Shown: positions 34,682 through 57,960 of the stretch, in pieces
Numbering within the stretch: the stretch's first letter is position 1
How the letters are laid out: every line of letters starts with the position of its first letter
Assembly (NCBI GenBank): GCA_963920705.1
Contig: CAWUCO010000218.1
Span: 248,001 to 312,000 of the forward strand
Source of the DNA: Odiellus spinosus
Lineage: Eukaryota > Arthropoda > Arachnida > Opiliones > Phalangiidae
Length of the DNA stretch: 64,000 bases
Direction: 5' to 3'
Made by a program: the position numbers and the translations under genes
The notes under the pieces: generated by a model
Told to the model about the DNA's origin: nothing
The model's database searches: none
What the model saw: only the letters and a program-made list of their open reading frames with translations

Positions 34682-34696
34682 CCCCTACGAAAATGG
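34682..34696 (+). repeat. Left terminal inverted repeat
   Basis: CCCCTACGAAAATGG pairs with the right end at 14 of 15 positions. Similarity continues loosely inward through TGATCAAATTT, which is also the first subterminal motif. The preceding bases GGATTCAAA are satellite sequence. Confidence 0.9.
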
Positions 34697-35150
34697 CTGA
34701 TCAAATTTTGATCATAAAGATTCAATCAGGAATTGGACCGATCAAATCACGATTAAACTATATTGGATTCAATTTTAGATCAAATCATTGTTAAAATATT
34801 TTAAATCTAAAACTAGACTTTGATCAAATCTCAATCAAATTACGATCAAGCTTCTTTGAAATAACATTCAAGGTTCGATCAAATTCCTATCAAACTTGTA
34901 CCAAATTCCTATCAAACTTGTACCAAATTCCTATCAAGCTGCTTTGAAATAACGATTTAGTTTCGATCAATTTCCTATCAAATTTCCATCAGATTATAAA
35001 CACGGAACGATCAAATTATTATCAAGCTTCTTTGAAAAAACGTTCAAGTTTCGATCAAACTACGACCAAATTCTCATCACGGTACGATCAAATTTCTATC
35101 AATCTTCATTGAAATAACGTTCAAGTTCTGATTAAATTCAAATCTTGCTG
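34697..35150. repeat. Left subterminal repeats, degenerate GATCAAA motifs
   Basis: Many GATCAAA, ATCAAATT and CTATCAA words occur in loosely repeated blocks, for example CGATCAAATTCCTATCAAAC and CAAGCTTCTTTGAAATAACG (near 34846, 34937 and 35018). No gene is visible. Clusters of short motifs next to the ends are where CACTA accessory proteins bind in known elements. Their role here is inferred. Confidence 0.75.
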
Positions 35151-35937
35151 CGATCAAATTCCTATCAGGCTTCAGTCAAATTCTTATTAGCCTTCAACCA
35201 AATTCTTATCAGTCTTCGATCAAATTCTTATCAGTCTTCGATCAAATTCTTATCAGTCTTCGATCAAATTCTTATCAGTCTTCGATCAAATTCTTATCAG
35301 TCTTCGATCAAATTCTAATCAGTCTTCGATCAAATTCTTATCAGTCTTCGATCAAATTCTTATCAGTCTTCGATCAAATTCTTATCAGTCTTCGATCAAA
35401 TTCTTATCAGTCTTCGATCAAATTCTTATCAGTCTTCGATCAAATTCTTATCAGCCTTCGATCAAATTCTTATCAGCCTTCGATCAAATTCTTATCAGCC
35501 TTCGATCAAATTCTTATCAGCCTTCGATCAAATTCTTATCAGCCTTCGATCAAATTCTTATCAGCCTTCGATCAAATTCTTATCAGCCTTCGATCAAATT
35601 CTTATCAGCCTTCGATCAAATTCTTATCAGTCTTCGATCAAATTCTTATCAGTCTTCGATCAAATTCTTATCAGTCTTCGATCAAATTCTTATCAGTCTT
35701 CGATCAAATTCTTATCAGTCTTCGATCAACTTCTTATCAGTCTTCGATCAAATTCTTATCAGTCTTCGATCAAATTCTTATCAGTCTTCGATCAAATTCT
35801 TATCAGTCTTCGATCAAATTCTTATCAGTCTTCGATCAAATTCTTATCAGTCTTCGATCAAATTCTTATCAGTCTTCGATCAAATTCTTATCAGTCTTCG
35901 ATCAAATTCTTATCAGTCTTCGATCAAATTCTTATCA
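35150..35937 (+). repeat. 22-bp minisatellite in the left subterminal region
   Basis: About 35 tandem copies of a 22-bp unit, GATCAAATTCTTATCAGTCT plus TC. The first few are degenerate (CAGTCAAATTC, CAACCAAATTC). A block at about 35450-35620 has AGCCTTC instead of AGTCTTC, flanked on both sides by AGTCTTC copies. Single variants are CTAATCAG near 35313 and GATCAACTT near 35726. Each unit carries one GATCAAA and one TTATCAG, so this is an amplified form of the subterminal motif. Confidence 0.93.
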
Positions 35938-36060
35938 GCTTCTTACAGTAATATTTCTATCAAGCTATGATCAAATTTAAATCCCCCAAAATGACACAAA
36001 AACGTAAAAGCTAGGCCTTTGAGATTTATTGTCCTTTTAGTTTTTGCTTACAATTAAGCC
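35938..36060. other. 3' flank of the BEN gene
   Basis: Short AT-rich stretch between the minisatellite and the BEN stop codon. Apart from the polyadenylation signal listed separately, it holds one more degenerate GATCAAA and no other feature I recognise. Confidence 0.5.
36025..36030 (-). terminator. Polyadenylation signal of the BEN gene
   Basis: TTTATT on the + strand is AATAAA on the - strand, about 30 bases beyond the stop codon of the last BEN exon. The position is suitable for a 3' end, but no transcript evidence is available. Confidence 0.6.
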
Positions 36061-39000
36061 CTAGGTGTCAGTTTGAATTTTGTTTATAGTTTCTCTTCTG
36101 ATTTCACTCAATTTATTTCCCAGTGTTCGAACTAGGTCTTTTCTAGTTTCTTTCCAATTCCTTTTCTGGGCTGCTTCCAATACATAATCTATCAATATAA
36201 AAAAAAATATAGTAATAATTTATAATTTTAATCATAGTTATGTAATTTACCAATTATAGCTTCAACAGCTGGCTTATATAATCCAGACCGGCTGTCAGTT
36301 GGTTTTCCATGTGGTCCATTGGCCATTCGTCCATAAAGTGAGCAAGTTTGTAGAAACTCAACTTCAAAAATTTCCAATAATAATAATCGAGCCATAGTGG
36401 AAGCAGTTTTACTTGAGTTTTCTACCCGTCTCAAACAAAAGCTTGGTATGAAAACTTTGGAACCGGTCACAAGCTCTACCACCTATATGTGGAAAAAATA
36501 TTTTGTTACTCGCCACTTTCAACCTTATACTTACGAATCGACCAGAAGTTTTTGATTAATTTTGAATAACAAAAATATAAAAAAGGGGGCTTTGTTCTTA
36601 TATTGACTAGTTACCCATCGGGTTTTAATATAATACTCTTCCATAGTCAGAGAATAAATATCGGCTTAGCATCTTTAACATTGCGATTTAAAAATAATAA
36701 TATTAAAAAAAGCATCGAGATTTCTATTAGATTTTACATTTTTAAATATTTATTAATCTAAATCGCTTAAAATTTGGCTGCATTTCTACTTCATATATCC
36801 CGTCTATTCGGGAGGGGCAATACTGCATAGAAAAATACCCCTATTATTTAAATTCAAGCTGACTTTAAAAAGTACAGAAACTTACGTCTGAATCAGAAGA
36901 AAAGAATTTCATGTGCTTATTTTCATTCATCTGAATATCAGTCTTTTGTTTGGGTGCTGAAAAATTCAATTAAGTTTAGAGAAAGGTGAGAAATATGAAC
37001 CCCGCACATTTTCAACATACTTGATGTTATTGCAGTAGTACTTGGTTTTGGATCTGTTATTGAAGTTGAAAGGAAATCAAAACTTGACTCATCTGAAAAA
37101 TCTATAAAGTTACTTAAAGATTTAGTTATGATTTTAGTATACCTTGAATGTAAACGTCGAAGTAAACCTATTTCGACGGACTTCGTTTGCATCCAATAAT
37201 ATATACAAAAAATAGTAACATATCAACAAAAATCATATTGTTTATTGACTGTGCATTATCTGACTCTTTGAGAGTGCAGCCCTTTATTGTTTTTTTCACT
37301 GTTGTGGCAAAGGTTCGATTGAGCTGGATTTTATGTACTTCCACGTCATCATCAGAATTAGAAGCGTTCTTGGAATGTAGTTGAACTGTCTTACTAGGAG
37401 TTTCAAAAATTGATTTTGAAAGAGCTATAATTAAGGATCGAGAGATATATTGATTAGAAATCTGACTTTTGATTCTAAAAAACCCTCTTCAAAACTTGAT
37501 ACAAGAGATTTTTGGTTAAAGTGAGGTTTGTAAGACCCCAGGCTTCGGGACGAAGGAATCCATGGAGGGAATTGTTTGTAAAGTTAATTTAACGAAAAAC
37601 ACTAAAAATGTATAAATATATACCAGTTTTCTGAATTCGGCCTTCTTGACAAAAACTGAGAATTTCATTCAAGAGAGCGTTTGCTTTGTCGACTTTGTTT
37701 TCAACGACACAAAATTTCTTTTCTAGATCATCTAGGTAGGAAATTGTAGGAAGACAGTTCTTGCAGGGAGTATTGATTTTTTTCTCATTATTTTCTAGGC
37801 CTTCTTGTTTAGACTGGAGTATTGTTTCATTGTCTGATTTGACTGAAGGCATTTTGCTACGTATATACTCCTGCATTGCTCGCTTGCCTTGATTTTTGAC
37901 ATCTTTGTCCTGAAGCTTTTTTCTTTTCTGAAATAAATTATAACATTCAGTGTTGTATAATGTAAAATTTTAAACAGCTTCAAGCAACTAATTAAGCTGG
38001 TTTATGATTTACCCAACCCCGAACAGGGTGTCAATTAGCGAGGCAAACCCAACATAAGCTGATTTAATACTTTACTTAAAAGAGGCCCAAATTTCATACA
38101 TCCCACTATCCCCTTTGATTAGAAAATTGAGTGAATCATACCTGAGTCTGTTTACATGGATTTCCTTTCCACTTCGTCACTCTTGTCGAATTTGAAAATT
38201 CTTCCTCGTCACCAGTGTGATCGTCAATCTCTTTCTTATCTCCCTTAAATGTTTCATCTAACATATTTTCTCGGAATGGAATTAACTCTTTTTTCGTGCC
38301 TATATTTGTTAAAGTCGTATATTAGCTGATGCATCGATCTATATTAATAAGCTAGTTTAATTCTTTGAAATTAAATACACAATTAAATCTGGGTTTTCAA
38401 AACAGCGGGAAACTGGCAAAGAACGTAAAATTCTCAATCCTGCTAAACAGTAACCATTTAAATAAAAGGGAGAATATTAGACAAGAGAAAAATAATCGTA
38501 TATTCTCGGTTCGATTTGTACCCGCCCGATTTTTTTTTCCTGCTACACACTCTTTTGAAAATCCAGCTTAAGCTAATCTTTTTATAGGCGTGGTGGATAG
38601 CCTCGATGTCATAGCATGCACGAATAAAAATTTACACCAGAACAAAACTCTTTCGTTGAGCATGACGCAAAATACAATAATCGGCCGCTTTGTGTAATTC
38701 ATAATTCATTCATGGTCACGAAGCTAACCAACAGCGACCTATCCTAATTATTAACGTTAACCTCAGCGGTGTTTAGATGAAAGGAGGACTCCAACAGCAT
38801 TTGGAAAGCTGTTAACTATTCAAACATCAAGTACTAATATTAAATAAGATATCATCGATAAAGAATAAAAAAATGTAAAAAATACTTACAAGCCAGCTTT
38901 ATTACAGTAGCGGAGACGATTGATCGTTTATAATTAACTAGAACGTTTGATCCTTCTTTAGGAGGATTTTTCGGATCCCATTCGCGGATGACTAAAACTC

Positions 39001-39175
39001 TGTAAATGTCTACAGCATTTTCTTCGGGAATATCTAGCAAAGCGAACTCAATTTCTTCACTAATAGTAGTATCCTCACTATCCTGTATCTCGGACACGTT
39101 CTCGGTCTTATCAATTAAGCCTTGGTTACACTTCGGCGTGTTTGGGCTTTTCACGTGATCCATTACTAATTCCAT
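36061..39175 (-). CDS. BEN-domain DNA-binding protein of the transposon (about 8 exons)
   Basis: Spliced gene of about 460 residues, read from 39175 down to a TAG at 36061. Exons: 1, 39175-38890 (donor GTAAGT); 2, 38299-38142; 3, 37927-37624; 4, from 37424 (or 37385), 3' end unresolved near 37200-37300; 5, starting at 37092 or 37101 and ending 37021 (donor GTATGT); 6, 36956-36886; 7, 36482-36251; 8, 36188-36061. Phases agree across exons 1-3 and 5-8. Exon 1 is acidic. Exon 3 has a probable coiled coil (YLDDLEKKFCVVENKVDKAN). Exon 4 is hydrophilic and rich in Ser, Asn and Asp. Exons 7-8 form a BEN domain: VELVTGSKVFI, then ARLLLLEIF, CSLYGR, and KPAVEAIIDYVLE across the splice, followed by a basic tail (KRNWKETRKDL). 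BEN domains bind DNA in insect and vertebrate chromatin factors. I infer that this protein binds the element's own repeats. A captured host gene with another role is possible. Exons 4-5 are the weak part of the model. Confidence 0.82.
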
Positions 39176-39963
39176 TTTAAAACTCGGTCTAGTCTAGCAA
39201 TTAAATTCTCTGTCTAAATCTAATTTCTAATTAATAAATATATTTATCTTTGTTCATCGCATTAAAATTTTTACTTGCCGAGCTTGCCAAATGTGGAACG
39301 ACCCGTAACATCACTCGAAAAATCCAAAGAGAAAAGAAATTACTCTTACCATAGATTATATACTAGCTCAGAGACAAGCTAGCCGTATTGATTCAATCTT
39401 TTTTTGTCTAAATATTTTTTAAAGTGGTAGGGACAATATAAGATGATCAATTATATTTTTTAAAATTAAGAATAAATAGATTAATAATTTTGAAATTATC
39501 TATAACTTATTCATTCAAATTTTATTGTACCTGATTAATTATTCAGTGGAGAGTACGTCTGTCAGACATGTTGAAAGTGTTTCCTAGGAAACAGGGCGTT
39601 AGGCAAATTACAAGTTTAAGAATTAAATATATGTGGACCCTATAGACTAAATTTTTATCAGATGAAACACATTCAAAATTAAATAACATAATATTTTTAA
39701 CAGGTAATTTTATCAGGGCGCGAGAAAATATTTTATATTTCTCGGGTTTCTTTTTTACGTTGTACGGCCAACCATCGTCGCCGTGAACTGAACTCTTTCG
39801 AGGTTGCCTATTGTGTCGTCTGCTAAGTTAGGCTATTCTGTCTGCTGATTGTGTGAAAGACGAAGGCGAATTTTCATTTATAACAGCTGGGAATTAAGTG
39901 GGACCAGGAATTCCTGAATTATGTTACCAATTTAGGTATTAATGGTGCACAGGAAAATATAAA
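39176..39963. promoter_or_regulatory. Divergent intergenic region between BEN and transposase genes
   Basis: 788 bp separates the two start codons, so both promoters must lie here or in untranslated exons within it. The region is AT-rich, with a GC-richer patch at about 39760-39850. I cannot assign TATA boxes or start sites with confidence. Two palindromes at 39557-39593 are the most distinct sites. Confidence 0.6.
39557..39593. promoter_or_regulatory. Paired palindromes between divergent promoters
   Basis: GTCTGTCAGAC (39557-39567, a 5-bp dyad around one base) is followed by TGTTTCCTAGGAAACA (39578-39593, a perfect 16-bp palindrome). The centres are about 23 bp apart. BEN proteins and many other regulators bind dyads as dimers, so this could be an operator for either gene. 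That is inference only. Confidence 0.45.
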
Positions 39964-42900
39964 ATGCCTCTAGGAAAGTATAGAAAATATATTTCAAACA
40001 AGGAAGCAAGAGTGAGTTGTCTAATTGTTAATATTATTAACAATTGGTGAATTTAAAAGTGAATCTTAATATAGATACCAAGAACAACCCGGAATCGGTG
40101 GAAAAATAATTCAATTGCAACTGTTTCTGGAAACCGCGAAGATAGTAAGAATAATTTAGTAATGTACAAACTAATGCAATCTGGAATTGGTCAGAGATTT
40201 AATATTTGGCATGGAAGACGGCATACCGACCCCCCTCATAATTATATAAAAATCCAGTATTTTGGCCTTTGCCAATTATAATCTTTTCAAAAGGACTTAA
40301 CCTAACCTAACCTAGCATAGCTAAAGTTGAGTTAAGAATGTCCTTTTGAAAAAATAATAGTCGGCAGAGGCCCAAATACCGGATTTTTATATTATTTTGA
40401 GGGGGCCGAGGGGGGTCGGTCTGCTGTCTTCTCCCCGAGATGGCATAGAAGTGAGTAGGAGGCTGCTATAGCAATTACATTATCTGAACAGATTATACAT
40501 CAAGTGCTGATACACTCCAGGCCACAGACCCGGATGACACTAATCCCAATACTATAATTAACTTGTTGGTTGAAAATAATGGTATGTTTATAGACCTATA
40601 AGTTTGAATATATATAACGCCTCGTACGTGTAGCATTAAATTAGCAAAGCTATAAATATTAGCTCTTTAGTAAACAGCCATATTGATTATTGATAATCAC
40701 TGTTCTCAGTGATAATTTAATTACAATTTAATGTATCACGTATCGGTATTATGCACTCTTAATGTGGAGCAGTTTCAGCTAGTTACAATTATTTAAGTTT
40801 CAAGAAAGCGATACTAATTTCAGGCACATGCCATGTACCCGAGCCCATAAATCACTGTGGAAATGAAGACTTTAATTCTAATGAGGATGAGCGAATCAAG
40901 GAACCCTTATACCCAGACTGTAAAATCACCAAATTTGAAAGTGCAGTAGCTATTCTATCCCTTATTATGAAACACAATCTTTCAAAGTGCTGTTTGGATG
41001 ATATAATTGCTCTTATTGGATTGCACTTACCACCGGAGACGGACTTCTTTTCTTCAAAGTTTACTTTTTATAACTTTATACAGTCCGCTCCAGCTCCTGT
41101 TAAACGTCATTCATTTTGCTCATCGTGTACATATTATTTGGGAAAAGAATCGGAGTTAAAAGCTAGCTTTGTTTGTCCAAGCTGTCGCAAAAATATATGT
41201 AAAACTAATTCAAAAGAGCTTGAATATTTTTATGAGATTGATATCATAAATTCGCTAAAGGTGCATCTTGAAAATGGTCGCCTCTTTAAACACTTAAGTC
41301 AAAGTTTCGAAGCAAGACGTGGAAAAAAACCTAATGGTGAAAAGACCTTTGAAAATATATTCGATGGTCAGGAGTATTTGAAGCTGAAAGATTTGGAAAA
41401 CGAAAACAATTTTTCTCTTATATGTAATGTGGACGGTGTACCCATATTCAAAAGTAGCAACAAAAGCTTGTGGCCCATCCAATTATCTATTCCAGAAGTT
41501 AGCTCACAATTTCAAAAAAAAATACATTATCATTGCTGGCCTTTGGTATGGCTGTAACAAACCGGATATGAATTCTTTTCTTTTTCCCCTAACACAAACC
41601 TTGAAGAAGTTGCATTCAAAAGGGTTTTCCTGGGTTCACCCAGTAAGTAAAAAGACCATAGTGTCCAAAGTATTTTCTCAAGTGTTTTGTGTTGACGCTG
41701 TAGCACGAGCACCCTTGCTTAACATGAACCAATTTAATGGTCAGTTTGGCTGTGGTATATGTGAACATCCAGGTGAATTAGAAGTATCATCAAGAGTGTA
41801 CAAATATGTTGAAGGGATACCAAACAGAACTCACGAATCAATTTTAATAGCTGCTAATGAAGCTTTAGAAAGTGAAACGATTGTTAAAGGAATCAAAGGA
41901 TTTTCTGTTCTCTCTTTGATTCCGGAATTAGATTTATCCAAATCTTTAGTTCCCGATTACATGCATGCTGTACTTCTTGGAGTTACAAGGCAATTTTTAA
42001 GCGCAATGGTGAACAGTAAAAATCATACAGAAGATTTTTATCTAGGAAATAAAACTAATCGAGTTGATCAGAAATTACTTTCAATCAAGCCTCCTAGATT
42101 TCTAACCAGGACGCCACGTTCACTTTCAACCATGAAAAATTGGAAAGCATCTGAATATAGAAACTTTTTACTTTTTTACGCATTACCACTGCTCAAGGGT
42201 ATTATTCCCTTTCGATTTTTAAAGAGCATTGCCCTTTTATGCAATGCAATCTACTTGCTTCTAAAGAGTAAAATTCAAGGTTCTGACATTGATTTAGCAG
42301 AATGCCTTCTAAAAGAATTTGTCAAATCTGTTCCTCTATTATATGGGAATAAATTTTGTTCATTTAATGTCCATCAATTACTACATTTAAGCAATACTGT
42401 ACGTAGCTGTGGACCTTTATGGACAACTTCTGCTTTTATATTTGAAGACAACAATCAAAGAATTAAAAAAGCGTTTCATGGAACCCAAGAAATCAATAAA
42501 CAAATAATCCAGTACATTCACGTAAATCATGCTCTCGAGATTAAAAAATACAGCATTAAAAAAAACTCCCCAGCAGATTCATTTTTGAATAATATGACCA
42601 GTAGCCACTCGGCCATGGTTGAAACCAAAATGGGTGAAGTTTCCTTGATAGGAAAGCACAAACGGAAAATATTTCAAACTAGAATAAAAGCAAAATTGGT
42701 TGAAATTGGATTTCCTCCAACCTTGAATATTTACCCAAGATTAAAATCTGGAAATATTGTTTATTATTCCAAAGAAATGCATCGAGCAGAAAAACGTAAC
42801 TCTTATACAGTTTTATTCAATTCAATTATGACTCCGAACGTCCAAGCATTAAGTAGACAAAATGAAAATTATGTAGGTTATATCTTGTACTTTTTTGGTT

Positions 42901-43121
42901 TTAACGGCTCAGCTTATGCTGTTGTGCAGAAATTTAAGTTGGGTATGCCACCGTTCCGATACCAAGAACCATGTAATTTTAAGGTCAGTCATTTGTTAAA
43001 AGTTGAGTCAAGATCATGTGACGGTATTTGTATTATTAGAGCCAGTTCGATTATCAGTCAAGTTATAGAAGTCCTAGAATATGTCGCTATAATACCAAAT
43101 TTTGTGGAGTATATTTTATAA
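39964..43121 (+). CDS. CACTA/CMC-type DDE transposase, frameshifted
   Basis: Four exons: 39964-40011 (starting MPLGKYRKYI), 40075-40144, 40492-40581 and 40824-43121. All splices are GT-AG and in phase. Removing one A from the A9 run at 41514-41522 gives an 834-residue frame ending in TAA. In that numbering, two CxxC pairs (168/171, 187/190) suggest a zinc-binding N-terminal fold. NVDGVPIFKS holds the probable first catalytic Asp (273), FCVDAVARAP a second Asp (360), CGIC a further CxxC (379/382), and DYMHAVLLGVTRQ the D-x2-H signature (447-450). SAFIFEDNNQRIKKAFHGT holds the probable catalytic Glu (610). The order and wording match the animal relatives of plant Tnp2/EnSpm transposases. It should cut at the element's ends in the nucleus. 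The frameshift falls after the first Asp, so the gene as assembled is inactive unless the run is misread or slippage occurs. An alternative exon 2 reaching 40450 would place the nested MITE inside coding sequence. Confidence 0.87.
40213..40440. mobile_element. Hairpin MITE nested in the transposase gene
   Basis: Imperfect inverted arms at 40214-40296 and 40340-40431 contain GACCGACCCCCCTC-like ends, AAAATCCRGTATTTGGGCC-like middles and TTTTCAAAAGGAC next to the loop. The loop includes three CCTAA-type units. The 6-bp word TGGCAT flanks it at 40207-40212 and 40441-40446, a plausible target duplication. It has no coding capacity. The left arm lacks about 8 bp present on the right. It lies in the 347-bp intron 40145-40491 in the preferred gene model. 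Confidence 0.72.
41514..41522 (+). other. A9 run with a one-base frameshift
   Basis: Upstream sequence is coding in one frame up to SIPEVSSQF. Downstream sequence is coding in the next frame from YIIIAGLWYGC. The switch coincides with nine A residues where eight would keep one frame. It may be a true mutation, an assembly error in a homopolymer, or a slippage site. Confidence 0.85.
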
Positions 43122-43327
43122 GTAATGAGATAATTAAGCTCAGCTAGCTTAACTTAACTTTTTTTCTTATAGTAATAAGTATACTTAATGAAATTTTATT
43201 TTTTACTTTTGATATACTGCTTTATATAGCAATTTTCAAGATTAAAATTTATAAACAATATGATATATCATATTCCAGTTAAAATATTAGTATTTTAAGT
43301 TATTAGCATAATTTTTGTTTGGATCAG

Positions 43328-43333
43328 AATAAA
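43328..43333 (+). terminator. Candidate polyadenylation signal of the transposase gene
   Basis: AATAAA about 210 bases after the stop codon. The region is so AT-rich that such hexamers arise by chance, so the assignment is weak. Confidence 0.35.
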
Positions 43334-44294
43334 AGTTTTAATCAAAAATTAGTAAATTATTATAATTTTACAAATTATAAATACTGAACTAATATTATTT
43401 TCAGATTCAAAGAAATAATTTTTGGTTATCAAAATCATGCGGGTAAACTAAAACTAACTTTAATTACAAAATATTGTTTATTTTATATTTCATTATGGTT
43501 ATCGTTAAGATTAGTAATTATTTATTAAAATTTTAGCAAAGAACACTAAACAATATTTTCATGCAAAAACTTATAAGATATTTCGCCAAAAACACATTAG
43601 TTTTCCCCTATTAATTAATTAAGCTCCTTTAATTTTGATCATGATCACCTTAAAGTTAATTAAGGCCCGTAAAATATAGTTCCTCAAAGTATCCAAAATT
43701 CCTAATTAGCTCATCCCAACTTGATTAAAACTTGCTTAGATGGATAACTATCCAAATAAATTCCTCGAAAAAGCTTTATAAAATTTATATAATTTTAATT
43801 GGTCGATGGCAGAAAAATTAATCATAAAAAATATAATATTTAATCCAAAATTTAATATTTCATCAAGGGCTTTATAAAATACTGTAAAAGTAAAGTTTAT
43901 CAAATGGTATTTATTCAAAAACATTTTATCAAATAGTACTTAATTTCTAAAATAGTTAATCAAACTAGTACCTTTTTATAATCAAAAACAGATTATCAAA
44001 TTAAACAAAAATAGCTAGTTCATAAATCTCTGGATATGGTTGCAGTTTATCGTTGAAATCTCTTTTTTAAAAACGTCTATAAATATAATTAAGCGATCTT
44101 AAAATTGAAAAACGGTACGTAAGATCATGTTTTTATAAACATTTGCCAAATTTTTAGTTTATTCTATTGCTTTTGATATTTTTTTAAGAAATATATTAAC
44201 TAGATTAAAATTAAGCATCTATTAATTTCCTTGGCTAAATTTAGTTAAGCAGGAATTATGTTTAAATTATCAAAGGAAGTTAAATAAACAGAAA

Positions 44295-44360
44295 ATTTAC
44301 CAAATGTTATTGATAAAAACATAATTATAATTATGTTTTTATCATTAACATTTGGTAAAT
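44295..44360. repeat. 66-bp near-perfect palindrome
   Basis: ATTTACCAAATGTTATTGAT continues through AAAAACATAATTA and then its complement, with one mismatching pair (TTATTG against TTAATG) and no loop. It can form a long hairpin or cruciform. It lies between the transposase 3' end and the right subterminal repeats. Confidence 0.85.
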
Positions 44361-44475
44361 ATACCGTTTATCAATTTTATGATCAAACGATATATAATAA
44401 AAATAATCTGTTTCAGAGACAGATTCAATACTATTTGATTGAACTCTTATTGATCAAATAATATCAAATATGGTT

Positions 44476-45060
44476 TATCAAATTTTATTTCTAATCAAAT
44501 GCATCTATATCAAGTACAACGTGATCAAAGTACGATCGAATATTGTATGTCATTTTTTATTCTGGTCAAATTCATCTGAATCAAGTACATCGTGATCAAA
44601 GACCGATCAAATATGGTATAACAAATTATTTGTTTGATCAAATGCATCTAGTAGACGTACAATTTGATAAAAGACCGATCACATATGGAATATCAATTAT
44701 TTGTTTGATCAAATGCCACTAGGTGAAAAACAATTTGATACAATACCGATCACATATGTTATATCAAATTATTTGTTTGATCAAATGCATCTAGTAGAAG
44801 TACAATTTGATAAAAGACCGATCACATATGGAATATAAATTATTTGTTTGATCAAATGCCACTAGATGAAAAACAATTTGATACAATACCGATCACATAT
44901 GTTATATCAAATTATTTGTTTGATCAAATGAAACTAGATTAAACACAAATTGATAAAATACCGATCAAATATTTTATTTCAAATTATTTGTTTGATCAAA
45001 AGGTGATCATATTATGAAAATATGATAAACTTTTGATCATATTTTGGAAATTTGATCAAA
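44476..45060. repeat. Right subterminal repeats, about 71.5-bp unit
   Basis: TTTGATCAAATG begins units at 44633, 44704, 44776, 44847 and 44919, with degenerate units before (about 44490 and 44562) and after (near 44990). Two unit types alternate: one has GCATCTAGTAGA, the other GCCACTAG followed by GTGAAAAAC or ATGAAAAAC, giving a dimer of about 143 bp. Each unit also has ACCGATCACATATG or ACCGATCAAATAT. TTTGATCAAA is a perfect palindrome and is shared in core with the left-end motif. Confidence 0.88.
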
Positions 45061-45075
45061 CCATTTTCATAGGGG
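45061..45075 (-). repeat. Right terminal inverted repeat
   Basis: CCATTTTCATAGGGG is the complement of CCCCTATGAAAATGG. It is followed directly by AATGGACACAAAAC, which is satellite sequence. Just inside lies TTTGATCAAA, in the same position as TGATCAAA at the left end. Confidence 0.9.
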
Positions 45076-45077: not shown

Positions 45078-48000
45078 TGGACACAAAACTTTTGATTTTT
45101 AAGCGATTAAGACAAAATTAAGACCACTCGAAAGAGCAAATATTGGTCTATCTGAAAATCAAGAGTTTTGGAAAATCCGTTGAAAAACATGGAAAATATG
45201 GACAGTTCAAAAAGCATCTAATATCAAAAAGCGAATTTTGAAAATCTGAAATTTGACTATTTTGATATTCTATGATTTCTTGAATTGGCCATATTTTTCT
45301 TGTTTTTCAACGGATTTTTGAAAACTCTTGTTATTTAGACTGTCCATTAATTGCTCTTTCGAATGACTTTGGTTTTGTCTAAATTGCAAAATTGTGACAA
45401 ATATAAAATTGGTTAAAATAAAGCAAAAACACTTAAAAATCCAAGATTATTGGATTAAAATGGACACAAAACTTTTGATTTTTAAGCGATTTAGACAAAA
45501 TTAAGACCACTCGAAAGAGCAAATATTGGTCTATCTGAAAATCAAGAGTTTTGGAAAATCCGTTGAAAAACATGGAAAATATGGACAATTCAAAAAGCAT
45601 CTAATATCAAAAAGCGAATTTTGAAAATCTGAAATTTGACTATTTTGATATTGTATGGTTTCTTGAATTGGCCATATTTTCCATGTTTTTCAATGGATTT
45701 TCCAAAACTCTTGATTTTCAGATAGACCAATATTTGCTCTTTCGAGTGGTCTTAATTTTGTCTAAATCGCTTAAAAATCAAAAGTTTTGTGTCCATTTGA
45801 ATCCTATAATCTTGGATTTTTAAGCGTTTTTGCTTAATTTTAACCAATTTTATATTGGTCACAATTTTGCAATTTAGACAAAACCAAAGTCATTCGAAAG
45901 AGCAATTAATGGACAGTCTAAATAATAAGAGTTTTCAAAAATCCGTTGAAAAACAAGAAAAATATGGCCAATTCAAGAAACCATACAATATCAAAATAGT
46001 CAAATTTCAGATTTTAAAAATTCGCTTTTTGATATTAGATGTTTTTTGAATTGGCCATATTTTTCTTGTTTTTCAACGGATTTTTGAAAACTCTTGTTAT
46101 TTAGACTGTCCATTAATTGCTCTTTCGAATGACTTTGGTTTTGTCTAAATTGCAAAATTGTGACCAATATAAAATTGGTTAAAATTAAGCAAAAACGCTT
46201 AAAAATCCAAGATTATTGGATTAAAATGGACACAAAACTTTTGATTTTTAAGCGATTTAGACAAAATTAAGACCACTCGAAAGAGCAAATATTGGTCTAT
46301 CTAAAAAACAAGAGTTTTGGAAAATCAGTTGAAAAACATGGAAAATATAGCCAATTCAAAAAACATCTAATATCAAAAAGCGAATTTTTAAAATCTGAAA
46401 TTTGACTATTTTGATATTGTATGGTTTCTTGAATTGGCCATATTTTTCTTGTTTTTCAACGGATTTTTAAAAAATTCTTATTATTTAGACTGTCCATTAA
46501 TTGCTCTTTTGAATGACTTTGGTTTTGTCTAAATTGCAAAAGTGTGACCAATATAAAATTGGTTAAAATTAAGCAAAAACGCTTAAAAATCCAAGATTAT
46601 TGGATTCAAATGGACACAAAACCTTTGATTTTTAAGCGATTTAGACAAAATTAAGACCACTCGAAAGAGCAAATATTGGTCTATCTAAAAAACAAGAGTT
46701 TTGGAAAATCAGTTGAAAAACATGGAAAATATAGCCAATTCAAAAAACATCTAATATCAAAAAGCGAATTTTTAAAATCTGAAATTTGACTATTTTGATA
46801 TTGTATGGTTTCTTGAATTGGCCTTATTTTTCTTGTTTTTCAACGGATTTTTAAAAAATTCTTATTATTTAGACTGTCCATTAATTGCTCTTTCGAATGA
46901 CTTTGGTTTTGTCTAAATTGCAAAAGTGTGACCAATATAAAATTGGTTAAAATTAAGCAAAAACGCTTAAAAATCCAAGATTATTGGATTCAAATGGACA
47001 CAAAACCTTTGATTTTTAAGCGATTTAGACAAAATTAAGACCACTCGAAAGAGCAAATATTGGTCTATCTAAAAACCAAGAGTTTTGGAAAATCCGTTGA
47101 AAAACATGGAAAATACAGCCAATTCAAAAAACATCTAATATCAAAAAGCGAATTTTTAAAATCTGAAATTTGACTATTTTGATATTGTATGGTTTCTTTA
47201 ATTGGCCATATTTTTCTTGTTTTTCAACGGATTTTTGAAAACTCTTATTATTTAGACTGTCCATTAATTGCTCTTTCGAATGACTTTGGTTTTGTCTAAA
47301 TTGCAAAATTGTGACAAATATAAAATTGGTTAAAATTAAGCAAAAACGCTTAAAAATCCAAGATTATTGGATTAAAATGGACACAAAACTTTTGATTTTT
47401 AAGCGATTTAGACAAAATTAGACCACTCGAAAGAGCAAATATTGGTCTATCTAAAAAACAAGAGTTTTGGAAAATCCTTTGAAAAACATGGAAAATATAG
47501 CCAATTCAAAAAACATCTAATATCAAAAAGCGAATTTTTAAAATCTGAAATTTGACTATTTTGATATTGTATGGTTTCTTGAATTGGCCATATTTTTCTT
47601 GTTTTTCAACGGATTTTTAAAAAATTCTTATTATTTAGATTGTCCATTAATTGCTCTTTCGAATGACTTTGGTTTTGTCTAAATTGCAAAATTGTGACCA
47701 ATATAAAATTGGTTAAAATTAAGCAAAAACGCTTAAAAATCCAAGATTATTGGATTCAAATGGACACAAAACTTTTGATTTTTAAGCGATTTAGACAAAA
47801 TTAAGACCACTCGAAAGAGCAAATATTGGTCTATCTAAAAAACAAGAGTTTTGGAAAATCCGTTGAAAAACATGGAAAATATGGACAATTCAAAAAGCAT
47901 CTAATATCAAAAAGCGAATTTTGAAAATCTGAAATTTGACTATTTTGATATTGTATGGTTTATGAATTGGCCATATTTTTCTTGTTTTTCAACGGATTTT

Positions 48001-51000
48001 TGAAAACTCTTATTATTTAGACTGTCCATTAATTGCTCTTTCGAATGACTTTGGTTTTGTCTAAATTGCAAAATTGTGACAAATATAAAATTGGTTAAAA
48101 TAAAGCAAAAACGCTTAAAAATCCAAGATTATTGGATTCAAATGGACACAAAACCTTTGATTTTTAAGCGATTTAGACAAAATTAAGACCACTCGAAAGA
48201 GCAAATATTGGTCTATCTAAAAACCAAGAGTTTTGGAAAATCCGTTGAAAAACATGGAAAATACAGCCAATTCAAAAAACATCTAATATCAAAAAGCGAA
48301 TTTTTAAAATCTGAAATTTGACTATTTTGATATTGTATGGTTTCTTTAATTGGCCATATTTTTCTTGTTTTTCAACGGATTTTTGAAAACTCTTATTATT
48401 TAGACTGTCCATTAATTGCTCTTTCGAATGACTTTGGTTTTGTCTAAATTGCAAAATTGTGACAAATATAAAATTGGTTAAAATTAAGCAAAAACGCTTA
48501 AAAATCCAAGATTATTGGATTAAAATGGACACAAAACTTTTGATTTTTAAGCGATTTAGACAAAATTAGACCACTCGAAAGAGCAAATATTGGTCTATCT
48601 AAAAAACAAGAGTTTTGGAAAATCCTTTGAAAAACATGGAAAATATAGCCAATTCAAAAAACATCTAATATCAAAAAGCGAATTTTTAAAATCTGAAATT
48701 TGACTATTTTGATATTGTATGGTTTCTTGAATTGGCCATATTTTTCTTGTTTTTCAACGGATTTTTAAAAAATTCTTATTATTTAGATTGTCCATTAATT
48801 GCTCTTTCGAATGACTTTGGTTTTGTCTAAATTGCAAAATTGTGACCAATATAAAATTGGTTAAAATTAAGCAAAAACGCTTAAAAATCCAAGATTATTG
48901 GATTCAAATGGACACAAAACTTTTGATTTTTAAGCGATTTAGACAAAATTAAGACCACTCGAAAGAGCAAATATTGGTCTATCTAAAAAACAAGAGTTTT
49001 GGAAAATCCGTTGAAAAACATGGAAAATATGGACAATTCAAAAAGCATCTAATATCAAAAAGCGAATTTTGAAAATCTGAAATTTGACTATTTTGATATT
49101 GTATGGTTTATGAATTGGCCATATTTTTCTTGTTTTTCAACGGATTTTTGAAAACTCTTATTATTTAGACTGTCCATTAATTGCTCTTTCGAATGACTTT
49201 GGTTTTGTCTAAATTGCAAAATTGTGACAAATATAAAATTGGTTAAAATAAAGCAAAAACGCTTAAAAATCCAAGATTATTGGATTCAAATGGACACAAA
49301 ACTTTTGATTTTTAAGCGATTTAGACAAAATTAAGACCACTCGAAAGAGAAAATATTGGTCTATCTAAAAAACAAGAGTTTTGGAAAATCCGTTGAAAAA
49401 CATGGAAAATATAGCCAATTCAAAAAACATCTAATATCAAAAAGCGAATTTTTAAAATCTGAAATTTGACTATTTTGATATTGTATGGTTTCTTGAATTA
49501 GCCATATTTTTCTTCTTTTTCAACGGATTTTTAAAAAAATCTTATTATTTAGACTGTCCATTAATTGCTCTTTCGAAAGACTTTGGTTTTGTCTAAATTG
49601 CAAAATTGTGACCAATATAAAATTGGTTAAAATTAAGCAAAAACGCTTAAAAATCCAAGATTATTGGATTCAAATGGACACAAAACTTTTGATTTTTAAG
49701 CGATTTAGACAAAATTAAGACCACTCGAAAGACCAAATATTGGTCTATCTAAAAAACAAGAGTTTTGGAAAATCCGTTGAAAAACATGGAAAATATGGAC
49801 AATTCAAAAAGCATCTTATATCAAAAAGCGAATTTTGAAAATCTGAAATTTGACTATTTTGATATTCTATGATTTCTTGAATTGGCCATATTTTTCTTGT
49901 TTTTCAACGGATTTTTGAAAACTCTTATTATTTAGACTGTCCATTAATTGCTCTTTCGAATGACTTTGGTTTTGTCTAAATTGCAAAATTGTGACAAATA
50001 TAAAATTGGTTAAAATAAAGCAAAAACACTTAAAAATCCAAGATTATTGGATTCAAATGGACACAAAACTTTTTATTTTTAAGCGATTTAGACAAAATTA
50101 AGACTACTCGAAAGAGCAAATATTGGTCTATCTAAAAAACAAGAGTTTTTGAAAATCCGTTGAAAAACATGGAAAATATAGCTAATTCAAAAAACATCTA
50201 ATATCAAAAAGCGAATTTTTAAAATCTGAAATTTGACTATTTTGATATTGTATGGTTTCTTGAATTGGCCATATTTTTCTTGTTTTTCAACGGATTTTTG
50301 AAAACTCTTATTATTTAGACTGTCCATTAATTGCTCTTTCGAATGACTTTGGTTTTGTCTAAATTGCAAAATTTTGATAATTATAAAATTGGTTAAAATT
50401 AAGCAAAAACACTTAACAATCCAAGATTATTGGATTCAAATGGACACAAAACTTTTGATTTTTAAGCGATTAAGACAAAATTAAGACCACTCGAAAGAGC
50501 AAATATTGGTCTATCTGAAAATCAAGAGTTTTGGAAAATCCGTTGAAAAACATGGAAAATATGGACAGTTCAAAAAGCATCTAATATCAAAAAGCGAATT
50601 TTGAAAATCTGAAATTTGACTATTTTGATATTCTATGATTTCTTGAATTGGCCATATTTTTCTTGTTTTTCAACGGATTTTTGAAAACTCTTGTTATTTA
50701 GACTGTCCATTAATTGCTCTTTCGAATGACTTTGGTTTTGTCTAAATTGCAAAATTGTGACAAATATAAAATTGGTTAAAATAAAGCAAAAACACTTAAA
50801 AATCCAAGATTATTGGATTAAAATGGACACAAAACTTTTGATTTTTAAGCGATTTAGACAAAATTAAGACCACTCGAAAGAGCAAATATTGGTCTATCTG
50901 AAAATCAAGAGTTTTGGAAAATCCGTTGAAAAACATGGAAAATATGGACAATTCAAAAAGCATCTAATATCAAAAAGCGAATTTTGAAAATCTGAAATTT

Positions 51001-54000
51001 GACTATTTTGATATTGTATGGTTTCTTGAATTGGCCATATTTTCCATGTTTTTCAATGGATTTTCCAAAACTCTTGATCTTCAGATAGACCAATATTTGC
51101 TCTTTCGAGTGGTCTTAATTTTGTCTAAATCGCTTAAAAATCAAAAGTTTTGTGTCCATTTGAATCCTATATTCTTGGATTTTTAAGCGTTTTTGCTTAA
51201 TTTTAACCAATTTTATATTGGTCACAATTTTGCAATTTAGACAAAACCAAAGTCATTCGAAAGAGCAATTAATGGACAGTCTAAATAATAAGAGTTTTCA
51301 AAAATCCGTTGAAAAACAAGAAAAATATGGCCAATTCAAGAAACCATACAATATCAAAATAGTCAAATTTCAGATTTTAAAAATTCGCTTTTTGATATTA
51401 GATGTTTTTTGAATTGGCCATATTTTTCTTGTTTTTCAACGGATTTTTGAAAACTCTTGTTATTTAGACTGTCCATTAATTGCTCTTTCGAATGACTTTG
51501 GTTTTGTCTAAATTGCAAAATTGTGACCAATATAAAATTGGTTAAAATTAAGCAAAAACGCTTAAAAATCCAAGATTATTGGATTAAAATGGACACAAAA
51601 CTTTTGATTTTTAAGCGATTTAGACAAAATTAAGACCACTCGAAAGAGCAAATATTGGTCTATCTAAAAAACAAGAGTTTTGGAAAATCAGTTGAAAAAC
51701 ATGGAAAATATAGCCAATTCAAAAAACATCTAATATCAAAAAGCGAATTTTTAAAATCTGAAATTTGACTATTTTGATATTGTATGGTTTCTTGAATTGG
51801 CCATATTTTTCTTGTTTTTCAACGGATTTTTAAAAAATTCTTATTATTTAGACTGTCCATTAATTGCTCTTTTGAATGACTTTGGTTTTGTCTAAATTGC
51901 AAAAGTGTGACCAATATAAAATTGGTTAAAATTAAGCAAAAACGCTTAAAAATCCAAGATTATTGGATTCAAATGGACACAAAACCTTTGATTTTTAAGC
52001 GATTTAGACAAAATTAAGACCACTCGAAAGAGCAAATATTGGTCTATCTAAAAAACAAGAGTTTTGGAAAATCAGTTGAAAAACATGGAAAATATAGCCA
52101 ATTCAAAAAACATCTAATATCAAAAAGCGAATTTTTAAAATCTGAAATTTGACTATTTTGATATTGTATGGTTTCTTGAATTGGCCTTATTTTTCTTGTT
52201 TTTCAACGGATTTTTAAAAAATTCTTATTATTTAGACTGTCCATTAATTGCTCTTTCGAATGACTTTGGTTTTGTCTAAATTGCAAAAGTGTGACCAATA
52301 TAAAATTGGTTAAAATTAAGCAAAAACGCTTAAAAATCCAAGATTATTGGATTCAAATGGACACAAAACCTTTGATTTTTAAGCGATTTAGACAAAATTA
52401 AGACCACTCGAAAGAGCAAATATTGGTCTATCTAAAAACCAAGAGTTTTGGAAAATCCGTTGAAAAACATGGAAAATACAGCCAATTCAAAAAACATCTA
52501 ATATCAAAAAGCGAATTTTTAAAATCTGAAATTTGACTATTTTGATATTGTATGGTTTCTTTAATTGGCCATATTTTTCTTGTTTTTCAACGGATTTTTG
52601 AAAACTCTTATTATTTAGACTGTCCATTAATTGCTCTTTCGAATGACTTTGGTTTTGTCTAAATTGCAAAATTGTGACAAATATAAAATTGGTTAAAATT
52701 AAGCAAAAACGCTTAAAAATCCAAGATTATTGGATTAAAATGGACACAAAACTTTTGATTTTTAAGCGATTTAGACAAAATTAGACCACTCGAAAGAGCA
52801 AATATTGGTCTATCTAAAAAACAAGAGTTTTGGAAAATCCTTTGAAAAACATGGAAAATATAGCCAATTCAAAAAACATCTAATATCAAAAAGCGAATTT
52901 TTAAAATCTGAAATTTGACTATTTTGATATTGTATGGTTTCTTGAATTGGCCATATTTTTCTTGTTTTTCAACGGATTTTTAAAAAATTCTTATTATTTA
53001 GATTGTCCATTAATTGCTCTTTCGAATGACTTTGGTTTTGTCTAAATTGCAAAATTGTGACCAATATAAAATTGGTTAAAATTAAGCAAAAACGCTTAAA
53101 AATCCAAGATTATTGGATTCAAATGGACACAAAACTTTTGATTTTTAAGCGATTTAGACAAAATTAAGACCACTCGAAAGAGCAAATATTGGTCTATCTA
53201 AAAAACAAGAGTTTTGGAAAATCCGTTGAAAAACATGGAAAATATGGACAATTCAAAAAGCATCTAATATCAAAAAGCGAATTTTGAAAATCTGAAATTT
53301 GACTATTTTGATATTGTATGGTTTATGAATTGGCCATATTTTTCTTGTTTTTCAACGGATTTTTGAAAACTCTTATTATTTAGACTGTCCATTAATTGCT
53401 CTTTCGAATGACTTTGGTTTTGTCTAAATTGCAAAATTGTGACAAATATAAAATTGGTTAAAATAAAGCAAAAACGCTTAAAAATCCAAGATTATTGGAT
53501 TCAAATGGACACAAAACTTTTGATTTTTAAGCGATTTAGACAAAATTAAGACCACTCGAAAGAGAAAATATTGGTCTATCTAAAAAACAAGAGTTTTGGA
53601 AAATCCGTTGAAAAACATGGAAAATATAGCCAATTCAAAAAACATCTAATATCAAAAAGCGAATTTTTAAAATCTGAAATTTGACTATTTTGATATTGTA
53701 TGGTTTCTTGAATTAGCCATATTTTTCTTCTTTTTCAACGGATTTTTAAAAAAATCTTATTATTTAGACTGTCCATTAATTGCTCTTTCGAAAGACTTTG
53801 GTTTTGTCTAAATTGCAAAATTGTGACCAATATAAAATTGGTTAAAATTAAGCAAAAACGCTTAAAAATCCAAGATTATTGGATTCAAATGGACACAAAA
53901 CTTTTGATTTTTAAGCGATTTAGACAAAATTAAGACCACTCGAAAGACCAAATATTGGTCTATCTAAAAAACAAGAGTTTTGGAAAATCCGTTGAAAAAC

Positions 54001-54655
54001 ATGGAAAATATGGACAATTCAAAAAGCATCTTATATCAAAAAGCGAATTTTGAAAATCTGAAATTTGACTATTTTGATATTCTATGATTTCTTGAATTGG
54101 CCATATTTTTCTTGTTTTTCAACGGATTTTTGAAAACTCTTATTATTTAGACTGTCCATTAATTGCTCTTTCGAATGACTTTGGTTTTGTCTAAATTGCA
54201 AAATTGTGACAAATATAAAATTGGTTAAAATAAAGCAAAAACACTTAAAAATCCAAGATTATTGGATTCAAATGGACACAAAACTTTTGATTTTTAAGCG
54301 ATTTAGACAAAATTAAGACTACTCGAAAGAGCAAATATTGGTCTATCTAAAAAACAAGAGTTTTTGAAAATCCGTTGAAAAACATGGAAAATATAGCTAA
54401 TTCAAAAAACATCTAATATCAAAAAGCGAATTTTTAAAATCTGAAATTTGACTATTTTGATATTGTATGGTTTCTTGAATTGGCCATATTTTTCTTGTTT
54501 TTCAACGGATTTTTGAAAACTCTTATTATTTAGACTGTCCATTAATTGCTCTTTCGAATGACTTTGGTTTTGTCTAAATTGCAAAATTTTGATAATTATA
54601 AAATTGGTTAAAATTAAGCAAAAACACTTAACAATCCAAGATTATTGGATTCAAA
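45078..54655. repeat. Large higher-order repeat, 5,363/4,215-bp offset
   Basis: Sequence from 45078 recurs at 50441 with an offset of 5,363 bp, including the rare AAGCGATTAAGAC variant and the flips at 45680 and 46060. After about 48100 the offset drops to 4,215 bp, because the first copy holds an extra 1,148-bp duplication. The second copy diverges near 54655. Only a few differences are seen, for example GATTTTCAG against GATCTTCAG and CCTATAATC against CCTATATTC. Confidence 0.88.
46975..49270 (-). repeat. 1,148-bp tandem duplication (three monomers)
   Basis: Positions of about 46975-48122 and 48123-49270 are near-identical. Shared markers are CAAAACCTTTG, AAATACAGCC, TTTCTTTAATTGG, AAATCCTTTG, TAGATTGTCC and GGTTTATGAATTGG. 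The second large copy (from 50441) has only one of them, so the duplication is younger than the 5,363-bp event or was lost there. Confidence 0.85.
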
Positions 54656-55049
54656 TGGACACAAAACTTTTGATTTTTAAGCGATTTAGACAAAATTAAG
54701 ACTACTCGAAAGAGCAAATATTGGTCTATCTGAAAATCAAGAGTTTTGGAAAATCCGTTGAAAAACATGGAAAATATAGAAAATTCAAAAAACATCTAAT
54801 ATCAAAAAGCGAATTTTTAAAATCTTAAATTTGACTTTTTTGATATTGTATGGTTTCTTGAATTGGCCATATTTTTCTTGTTTTTCAACGGATTTTCCAA
54901 AACTCTTGATTTTCAGATAGACCAATATTTGCTCTTTCGAGTGGTCTTAATTTTGTCTAAATCGCTTAAAAATCAAAAGTTTTGTGTCCATTTGAATCCA
55001 ATAATCTTGGATTTTTAAGTGTTTTTGCTTAATTTTAACCAATTTTATA

Positions 55050-57960
55050 TTTGTCACAATTTTGCAATTTAGACAAAACCAAAGTCATTCGAAAGAGCAA
55101 TTAATGGACAGTCTAAATAACAAGAGTTTTCAAAAATCCGTTGAAAAACAAGAAAAATATGGCCAATTCAAGAAATCATACAATATCAAAATAGTCAAAT
55201 TTCAGATTTTAAAAATTCGCTTTTTGATATTAGATGTTTTTTGAATTGTCCATATTTTCCATGTTTTTCAACGGATTTTCCAAAACTCTTGTTTTTTAGA
55301 TAGACCAATATTTGCTCTTTCGAGTAGTCTTAATTTTGTCTAAATCGCTTAAAAATCAAAAGTTTTGTGTCCATTTTAATCCAATAATCTTGGATTTTTA
55401 AGTGTTTTTGCTTAATTTTAACCAATATTATATTTGTCACAATTTTGCAATTTAGACAATACCAAAGTCATTCGAAAGAGCAATTAATGGACAGTCTAAA
55501 TAATAAGAGTTTTCAAAAATCCGTTGAAAAACAAGAAAAATATGGCCAATTCAATAAATCATAGAATATCAAAATAGTCAAATTTCAGATTTTCAAAATT
55601 CGCTTTTTGATATTAGATGTTTTTTGAATTGTCCATATTTTCCATGTTTTTAACGGATTTTCCAAAACTCTTGTTTTTTAGATAGACCAATATTTGCTCT
55701 TTCGAGTGGTCTAATTTTGTCTAAATCGCTTAAAAATCAAAAGTTTTGTGTCCATTTGAATCCTATAATCTTGGATTTTTAAGCGTTTTTGCTTAATTTT
55801 AACCAATTTTATATTTGTCACAATTTTGCAATTTAGACAAAACCAAAGTCATTCGAAAGAGCAATTAATGGACAGTCTAAATAATAAGATTTTCAAAAAT
55901 CCGTTGAAAAACAAGAAAAATATGGCCAATTCAAGCAATCATAGAATATCAAAATAGTCAAATTTCAGATTTTAAAAATTCGCTTTTTGATATTAGATGT
56001 TTTTTGAATTGTCCATATTTTCCATGTTTTTCAACGGATTTTCCAAAACTCTTGTTTTTTAGATAGACCAATATTTGCTCTTTCGAGTGGTCTTAATTTT
56101 GTCTAAATCGCTTAAAAATCAAAAGTTTTGTGTCCATTTGAATCCAATAATCTTGGATTTTTAAGCGTTTTTGCTTAATTTTAACCAATTTTATATTGGT
56201 CACAATTTTGCAATTTAGACAAAACCAAAGTCATTCGAAAGAGCAATTAATGGACAGTCTAAATAACAAGAGTTTTCAAAAATCCGTTGAAAAACAAGAA
56301 AAATATGGCCAATTCAAGAAATCATACAATATCAAAATAGTCAAATTTCAGATTTTAAAAATTCGCTTTTTGATATTAGATGTTTTTTGAATTGTCCATA
56401 TTTTCCATGTTTTTCAACGGATTTTCCAAAACTCTTGTTTTTTAGATAGACCAATATTTGCTCTTTCGAGTAGTCTTAATTTTGTCTAAATCGCTTAAAA
56501 ATCAAAAGTTTTGTGTCCATTTTAATCCAATAATCTTGGATTTTTAAGTGTTTTTGCTTAACTTTAACCAATATTATATTTGTCACAATTTTGCAATTTA
56601 GACAAAACCAAAGTCATTCGAAAGAGCAATTAATTGACAGTCTAAATAATAAGAGTTTTCAAAAATCCGTTGAAAAACAAGAAAAATATGGCCAATTCAA
56701 GAAATCATAGAATATCAAAATAGTCAAATTTCAGATTTTCAAAATTCGCTTTTTGATATTAGATGTTTTTTGAATTGTCCATATTTTCCATGTTTTTAAC
56801 GGATTTTCCAAAACTCTTGTTTTTTAGATAGACCAATATTTGCTCTTTCGAGTGGTCTAATTTTGTCTAAATCGCTTAAAAATCAAAAGTTTTGTGTCCA
56901 TTTGAATCCTATAATCTTGGATTTTTAAGCGTTTTTGCTTAATTTTAACCAATTTTATATTTGTCACAATTTTGCAATTTAGACAAAACCAAAGTCATTC
57001 GAAAGAGCAATTAATGGACAGTCTAAATAATAAGATTTTCAAAAATCCGTTGAAAAACAAGAAAAATATGGCCAATTCAAGCAATCATAGAATATCAAAA
57101 TAGTCAAATTTCAGATTTTAAAAATTCGCTTTTTGATATTAGATGTTTTTTGAATTGTCCATATTTTCCATGTTTTTCAACGGATTTTCCAAAACTCTTG
57201 TTTTTTAGATAGACCAATATTTGCTCTTTCGAGTGGTCTTAATTTTGTCTAAATCGCTTAAAAATCAAAAGTTTTGTGTCCATTTGAATCCAATAATCTT
57301 GGATTTTTAAGCGTTTTTGCTTAATTTTAACCAATTTTATATTGGTCACAATTTTGCAATTTAGACAAAACCAAAGTCATTCGAAAGAGCAATTAATGGA
57401 CAGTCTAAATAACAAGAGTTTTCAAAAATCCGTTGAAAAACAAGAAAAATATGGCCAATTCAAGAAATCATACAATATCAAAATAGTCAAATTTCAGATT
57501 TTAAAAATTCGCTTTTTGATATTAGATGTTTTTTGAATTGTCCATATTTTCCATGTTTTTCAACGGATTTTCCAAAACTCTTGTTTTTTAGATAGACCAA
57601 TATTTGCTCTTTCGAGTAGTCTTAATTTTGTCTAAATCGCTTAAAAATCAAAAGTTTTGTGTCCATTTTAATCCAATAATCTTGGATTTTTAAGTGTTTT
57701 TGCTTAATTTTAACCAATATTATATTTGTCACAATTTTGCAATTTAGACAAAACCAAAGTCATTCGAAAGAGCAATTAATTGACAGTCTAAATAATAAGA
57801 GTTTTCAAAAATCCGTTGAAAAACAAGAAAAATATGGCCAATTCAAGAAATCATAGAATATCAAAATAGTCAAATTTCAGATTTTCAAAATTCGCTTTTT
57901 GATATTAGATGTTTTTTGAATTGTCCATATTTTCCATGTTTTTAACGGATTTTCCAAAAC
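55050..57960 (+). repeat. Higher-order repeat, 1,146-bp unit (three monomers)
   Basis: Markers recur at about 1,146 bp. These include CATGTTTTTAACGG (a 1-bp shorter arm B), AATAAGATTTTCAAAAATCC, CAAGCAATCATAG, ATTAATTGACAG and CCAATATTATATTTG. At least two full copies and one partial copy are present. Confidence 0.82.

Follow-up and report, generated by a model that had tools for sequence, protein, structure and literature searches.

The analysed stretch of DNA (hereafter, the window) comprises 64,000 nucleotides of the Odiellus spinosus genome (assembly GCA_963920705.1, contig CAWUCO010000218.1, positions 248,001 to 312,000), which correspond to C215:248001-312000 in the 443 Mb and 286 contigs that were searched. 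A satellite array with a unit of 383 bp occupies the window and is interrupted by a single insertion (34682-45075), a transposon of the CACTA kind that encodes a transposase and, divergently, a protein with a BEN domain (Table 1).

Table 1. Features of the transposon and its surroundings (positions in the window).
Feature	Position	Strand	Basis
Satellite, unit ~383 bp	1-34679 and 45078-64000		repeat analysis of the window
Left copy of 2-bp target duplication AA	34680..34681	.	satellite empty site
Complete transposon, 10,394 bp	34682..45075	.	satellite empty site, 15-mer search for terminal inverted repeats
Left terminal inverted repeat CCCCTACGAAAATGG, 15 bp	34682..34696	+	end alignment, genome 15-mer search
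Left subterminal repeats, including a 22-bp tandem array (35151-35942); GATCAAA 44 times in first 1300 bases	34697..35977	+	repeat analysis, motif count
BEN gene exon 8, end of BEN domain and stop	36061..36188	-	splice model, Pfam profile, match in C12 relative
BEN gene exon 7, core of BEN domain	36251..36482	-	Pfam profile, splice model, found in copies
BEN gene exon 6	36886..36956	-	splice model, comparison across copies
BEN gene exon 5 (5' border at either 37092 or 37112)	37021..37112	-	splice model, comparison across copies
BEN gene exon 4 (3' border at either 37250 or 37395)	37250..37424	-	splice model, comparison across copies
BEN gene exon 3	37624..37927	-	splice model, comparison across copies
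BEN gene exon 2	38142..38299	-	splice model, comparison across copies
BEN gene exon 1, with start codon	38890..39175	-	splice model, comparison across copies
Intergenic region shared by the two divergent genes, presumed promoter	39176..39963	.	
Transposase exon 1 (model)	39964..40011	+	splice model
Transposase exon 2 (model)	40075..40144	+	splice model
Transposase exon 3 (model)	40492..40581	+	splice model
Transposase main exon, with Cys pairs and a core resembling Transposase_21; frame interrupted at A run 41514-41522	40824..43121	+	Pfam profile, alignment, splice model
Right subterminal repeats: 72/143-bp array, then 30-bp repeat; GATCAAA 21 times in last 900 bases, TTTGATCAAA 7 times	44463..45060	-	repeat analysis, motif count
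Right terminal inverted repeat CCCCTATGAAAATGG, 15 bp	45061..45075	-	end alignment, genome 15-mer search
Right copy of 2-bp target duplication AA	45076..45077	.	satellite empty site

The two termini of the element are alike as inverted repeats in 14 of 15 bases and read CCCCTA (15-mer CCCCTAYGAAAATGG), i.e. they start with CCC, as is characteristic of animal CACTA (TRC) elements. When the flanks were joined with 2 bp removed, 119 of the 136 satellite matches spanning the junction were gap-free, and a duplication of 0, 3 or 4 bp gave no gap-free match among the spanning satellite places; therefore, the target duplication is exactly AA. A single insertion with inverted termini and a 2-bp duplication, as claimed in the original prediction (made by a model from the letters alone), is thus confirmed by the empty site in the satellite.

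The BEN gene comprises eight exons running from 39175 down to 36061 on the minus strand, divergently from the transposase gene. Its junctions are GT-AG with compatible phases, the exon 4/5 junction of the splice model being uncertain, and the splice dinucleotides are identical in the other copies read. The spliced 481-amino-acid protein matched the Pfam BEN profile (PF10523, positions 2-69 of 76) with 25.5 bits, passing the cut-off of 23.2, while exon 7 alone stayed under it (16.6 bits). A relative on contig C12 contains a 65% match to the last exon. Judging by the score of the spliced model, the conserved splice sites and the C12 match, the BEN gene of the element is real; both the predicted divergent multi-exon gene ending in a BEN domain and the profile check proposed for its spliced product have held up. 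Among solved chains of PDB, the window BEN domain had only weak matches, the best being NAC1 (E 0.077), and that of the C4 family matched BEND6 (5.8e-6), followed by 4ix7 (Insensitive, 0.009) and 4x0g (Bsg25A/Elba1, 0.039).

The transposase gene was modelled as four exons (39964-43121, plus strand), with a frame shift at a run of nine A (41514-41522). The transposase of the C47 copy is likewise in two pieces, and four other copies are open over 785 amino acids. The protein itself has a basic N-terminus and a region with Cys pairs. Transposases of the window family score below the Transposase_21 cut-off of 28.6 bits (12.6 bits for the window piece and 15.3 bits for the open copy L010). Among the six proteins scanned, three, from aligned relatives, exceed it (L028 with 41.2, L032 with 40.6 and L033 with 29.0 bits), L033 also passing DUF4218 (29.7 bits), and these relatives align to the window-family transposase at 27-30%. 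Residues D224, D311 and E561 are invariant among 13 aligned transposases and are candidates for the acidic catalytic triad of CMC DDE transposases. Because of the CCC ends, the 2-bp duplications and the relatives passing Transposase_21, the element is, on sequence grounds, a member of the animal CACTA (TRC) elements. The predicted CACTA/CMC transposase belongs with animal CACTA, but the ends are CCC instead of CACTA and the frame of the window gene is broken at the nine-A run. A foldback of about 218 bp (z -10.7) lies at 40214-40431, within intron 2 of the transposase model; it is also present in L010, L011, L012 and L026.

Six places in the genome, the window's own counted, encode transposases with 95-100% protein identity. 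Their nucleotide identity is 98.9-99.5% over most of the transposase region compared, with one 1.1-kb stretch of the C207 copy at 95.3%. All six copies carry the BEN exon (98-99% identity). The 15-mer CCCCTAYGAAAATGG occurs 13 times in the genome and its reversed control does not occur at all; 11 of these occurrences are ends of the six copies, the C207 copy having a right end with one mismatch, and the remaining two are C6:7069644 (L062) and C7:23485947, the latter looking like chance. Every copy is flanked by a 2-bp duplication (AA for the window, C47 and C261, TA for C149, CC for C183 and TT for C207), proven in three cases through satellite empty sites. The window, C47 and C261 copies were inserted in the same satellite at differing unit positions; for C47, 136 of the 267 spanning satellite matches were gap-free with 2 bp, for C261 136 of 137, and none were for 0, 3 or 4 bp. 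The BEN frame is intact end to end in four of the five copies read whole (window, C261, C149 and C47), the C207 copy having lost 1 bp in exon 3; the BEN gene of the C183 copy is open over exons 3-8, the exons read. The copies largely agree with the expectation that independent copies keep both genes, the same termini and intact BEN frames: both genes and the 2-bp duplication were found in all six and the terminal 15-mer at 11 of their ends, but the BEN frame is broken in C207.

Other observations concern the structure of particular copies. The C183 copy (C183:951297-967696) spans 16.4 kb and thus contains about 6 kb of extra sequence. At C207:486733-512051 (L008, L025, L064), the window-family copy is nested in a BEN element of the C4 type, which has a CA duplication of its own. 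C6:7069644 is a lone related end with GATCAAA repeats, with no transposase or BEN nearby among the matches listed. As to mitochondrial sequences, the COX1 gene of the genome has an open frame under the invertebrate code and resembles that of insects by eye, and contig C17 contains several incomplete, stop-bearing COX1 copies, which are probably mitochondrial insertions in the nucleus.

Relatives of the element share a CCC(C/T)TAC start (ends CCCTTACRAAAA), 2-bp duplications and BEN. A family with 61% identity (C12:1386741-1401613, end CCCTTACGAAAAT, duplication TA) carries BEN, as do families with 36-40% identity, e.g. C4:16106279-16117344 (TC), C9:694741-705630 (TG) and the C207 host element (CA). 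Among the matches listed, which include 73 transposase places and 35 BEN places and to which the counts of places in the genome refer, a BEN place is located within 25 kb of 24 transposase places, in 18 cases upstream and divergent and in six otherwise. By simple arithmetic, 35 randomly placed BEN sites would lie that close to about 0.4% of places.

The private capture of a host gene by the window copy was ruled out by the presence of BEN in all six copies, and neither of the two outcomes named beforehand as adverse to the prediction, copies devoid of BEN or such a capture, was observed, BEN also having co-diversified with the transposase in relatives. Alternatively, BEN might be a passenger that an ancestor acquired from a host and that does nothing for the element. 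Fifteen of the 35 BEN places lack a transposase match within 25 kb; among them are duplicates of the C8 element that have its left flank in common and, probably, host genes, which C3:7204133 and C6:6149885 may be. Such places speak for a passenger, and the following observations speak against it. Between the window and C12 families, BEN is under the same purifying selection as the transposase (pS 0.803 and pN 0.229 over 75 codons for BEN, pS 0.807 and pN 0.230 over 554 codons for the transposase, synonymous sites being saturated in both). The BEN and transposase distances are congruent over deep divergence (Mantel r 0.87, p ~1e-4, nine elements), and the frames are intact in most copies read whole, as described above. 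A functionless passenger is, thus, very improbable. Judging from these comparisons, BEN is co-diversified with the transposase across relatives and is a regular second gene of the element.

Whether BEN was acquired once is less clear-cut. In the unrooted tree, a single branch (100/100) parts the nine BEN-bearing transposases from the four for which no BEN was found, and the groups of the BEN tree agree with the transposase groups, the forks inside the larger BEN group being weak (69/66 and 68/69). Midpoint rooting places the window transposase clade beside the four transposases without BEN found, and therefore BEN might have been recruited a second time, separately by the window/C12 and the C4/C8 clades. 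The long branch between the two BEN groups, their different best structural matches (NAC1 at E 0.077 and BEND6 at 5.8e-6) and the lack of any detected N-terminal similarity between them are in line with two recruitments; on the other side stand the single branch of the unrooted tree and the divergent gene arrangement common to both clades. Double recruitment is, in our opinion, a possibility to be kept in mind but a rather doubtful one.

The subterminal regions of the element are filled with repeats in which GATCAAA is found 44 times in the left 1300 bases and 21 times in the right 900, while the top 7-mer across 100 shuffles occurred at most 9 and 10 times, respectively. GATCAA/TTGATC is found only four times in the 7394-base interior of the element and twice across 4600 satellite bases. 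The ends of other families contain motifs of their own: GGATCCA (45, C12 left), TTCCCAA (27, C9), ATTTCCC (16, C215:690k) and TTAAGAA (13, C8); no motif above shuffles was found at the ends of C183:522k. The description of the subterminal motifs as palindromes in general was dropped, since enrichment of exact palindromes was clear only at the right end of the window element and the left end of C12. In plant En-Spm, TnpA binds dense subterminal repeats, and dense subterminal repeats are likewise present here at both ends, as expected of a TnpA-like two-component system.

Our preferred reading, to which we assign a probability of about 0.62, is that of a two-gene animal CACTA (TRC) transposon, recently mobile, in which BEN serves as the long-term end-binding partner of the transposase. 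The DDE-type transposase would cut and join at the CCC ends, giving the 2-bp duplication, as suggested by the chemistry of its family; the BEN protein would bind the GATCAAA repeats, specific to the element, that crowd the subterminal regions and would mark or bridge both ends for the transposase. Like TnpA in plant Spm, it may in addition influence the promoter region that the two divergent genes share. The BEN domains of Insv, Bsg25A and NAC1 are reported to bind the short palindromes CCAATTGG and ACATGT (PMC7764960, available text), and in the bacterial Tn3 transposase TnpA a BEN-like fold is described as a key determinant of end recognition (PMC9579193, available text). The predicted role of BEN as a repeat-binding partner is consistent with the dense element-specific motif and with this biochemistry, and the BEN protein is, probably, a TnpA-like end-binding partner, the binding itself being deduced.

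The element's BEN protein could instead be a transcription or chromatin factor, which binds the ends or the divergent promoter and thereby represses, activates or insulates the element against silencing, with the transposase alone recognising the ends. In Drosophila, BEN-solo proteins are reported to function in repression and in the insulation of chromatin (PMC6911014); half of the six copies lie in satellite DNA, where silencing would matter, and the transposase has the Cys-pair region and basic N-terminus mentioned above. The motif arrays, however, are located at both ends, distant from the shared intergenic region, and TnpA of Spm is required for transposition yet also acts on its own promoter (PMC1636069, available text), so the transposition-partner and regulatory roles are compatible. 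We regard a purely regulatory BEN protein as unlikely, although considerably less so than a passenger.

Several points weigh against the end-binding role of BEN. The ends of the C4 subfamily contain no motif above shuffles, exact palindromes are not clearly enriched in the left array of the window element, and the NAC2 BEN domain is reported to bind a non-palindromic site (PMC7764960, available text). No match to the N-terminus of the window BEN protein was found in the C4 subfamily, and in one sub-lineage (C215:979506-984005 and C8:789993-794464) BEN shares the strand of the transposase and lies downstream of it. No BEN was found within 25 kb of 49 of the 73 transposase places. Most of these are 29-40% identical to the protein of the window, the tree including only four of them; others are partial sequences sharing 72-85% identity with the BEN-linked transposase L027, and for one 61% copy counted among them (C215:658367) a BEN exon lies 34 kb away. 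Among the 24 pairings, several refer to a common BEN place or fall on redundant contigs; C8/C169 and C178/C202 are apparently redundant, and therefore the transposase and BEN places are not all independent. Moreover, a single genome of one species was examined. Open reading frame lists of five loci of BEN-less relatives contained no nameable partner gene. DUF4806, which is said to be a BEN subtype (PMC11075544, available text), had no match in the genome as a partner of these relatives; the control genomes were also silent, so its absence is not shown.

A wider and more tentative proposal is that of an animal CACTA lineage with BEN as the end-recognition subunit, where the BEN of each subfamily co-evolves with its own motif (GATCAAA, GGATCCA, TTAAGAA, TTCCCAA). 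BEN might even steer insertions into satellite heterochromatin, where three of the six copies are found, and such elements could be one route of the spread of BEN through animals and into viruses; the domain is also present in bracoviruses and chordopoxviruses (PMC4574769, available text). No relatives of the element were confirmed in searches of viral-contig and genome-contig collections. The subfamilies would offer natural pairs of a BEN protein and a motif array for learning the rules of BEN recognition.

No description of a BEN-bearing transposon was found in the titles and abstracts searched, Repbase and most subscription papers being outside the search. Insensitive, Elba1, NAC1 and BEND6 share the domain by Pfam, the PDB match being significant for the C4-family relative and weak for the window protein, but they are animal genes, none of which was found described as a transposon gene. 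If our interpretation is true, BEN, a domain described to date in chromatin factors and viruses, becomes a transposon component. PIF/Harbinger elements, which encode a transposase and a MYB-like protein, are also two-protein DNA transposons with a separate DNA-binding partner, although their transposase is unrelated, their target duplication is 3 bp and their DNA-binding domain is a different one. Plant CACTA elements such as En-Spm end in CACTA, duplicate 3 bp of the target and encode TnpA, which is not known to be a BEN protein, in one transcription unit with the transposase, whereas the window element ends in CCCCTA, its copies have 2-bp duplications and its BEN gene is divergent. They resemble it in combining a transposase with a second element protein, both TnpD and TnpA being required for the transposition of En-Spm (PMC1636069, available text). 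Closest are SmTRC1 and other animal TRC elements, with CCC-starting inverted ends, 2-bp direct repeats (in seven of 14 SmTRC1 copies), a Transposase_21 transposase and, in Tribolium and Aedes, representatives some 5.2 and 9.2 kb long that have CCC-type ends; the available text of that source describes no BEN protein, and SmTRC1 produces other proteins from differently spliced transcripts with no detectable similarity outside Transposase_21 (PMC1636069). On our reading, animal CACTA elements would gain a dedicated DNA-binding partner similar to plant TnpA but built from an unrelated domain.

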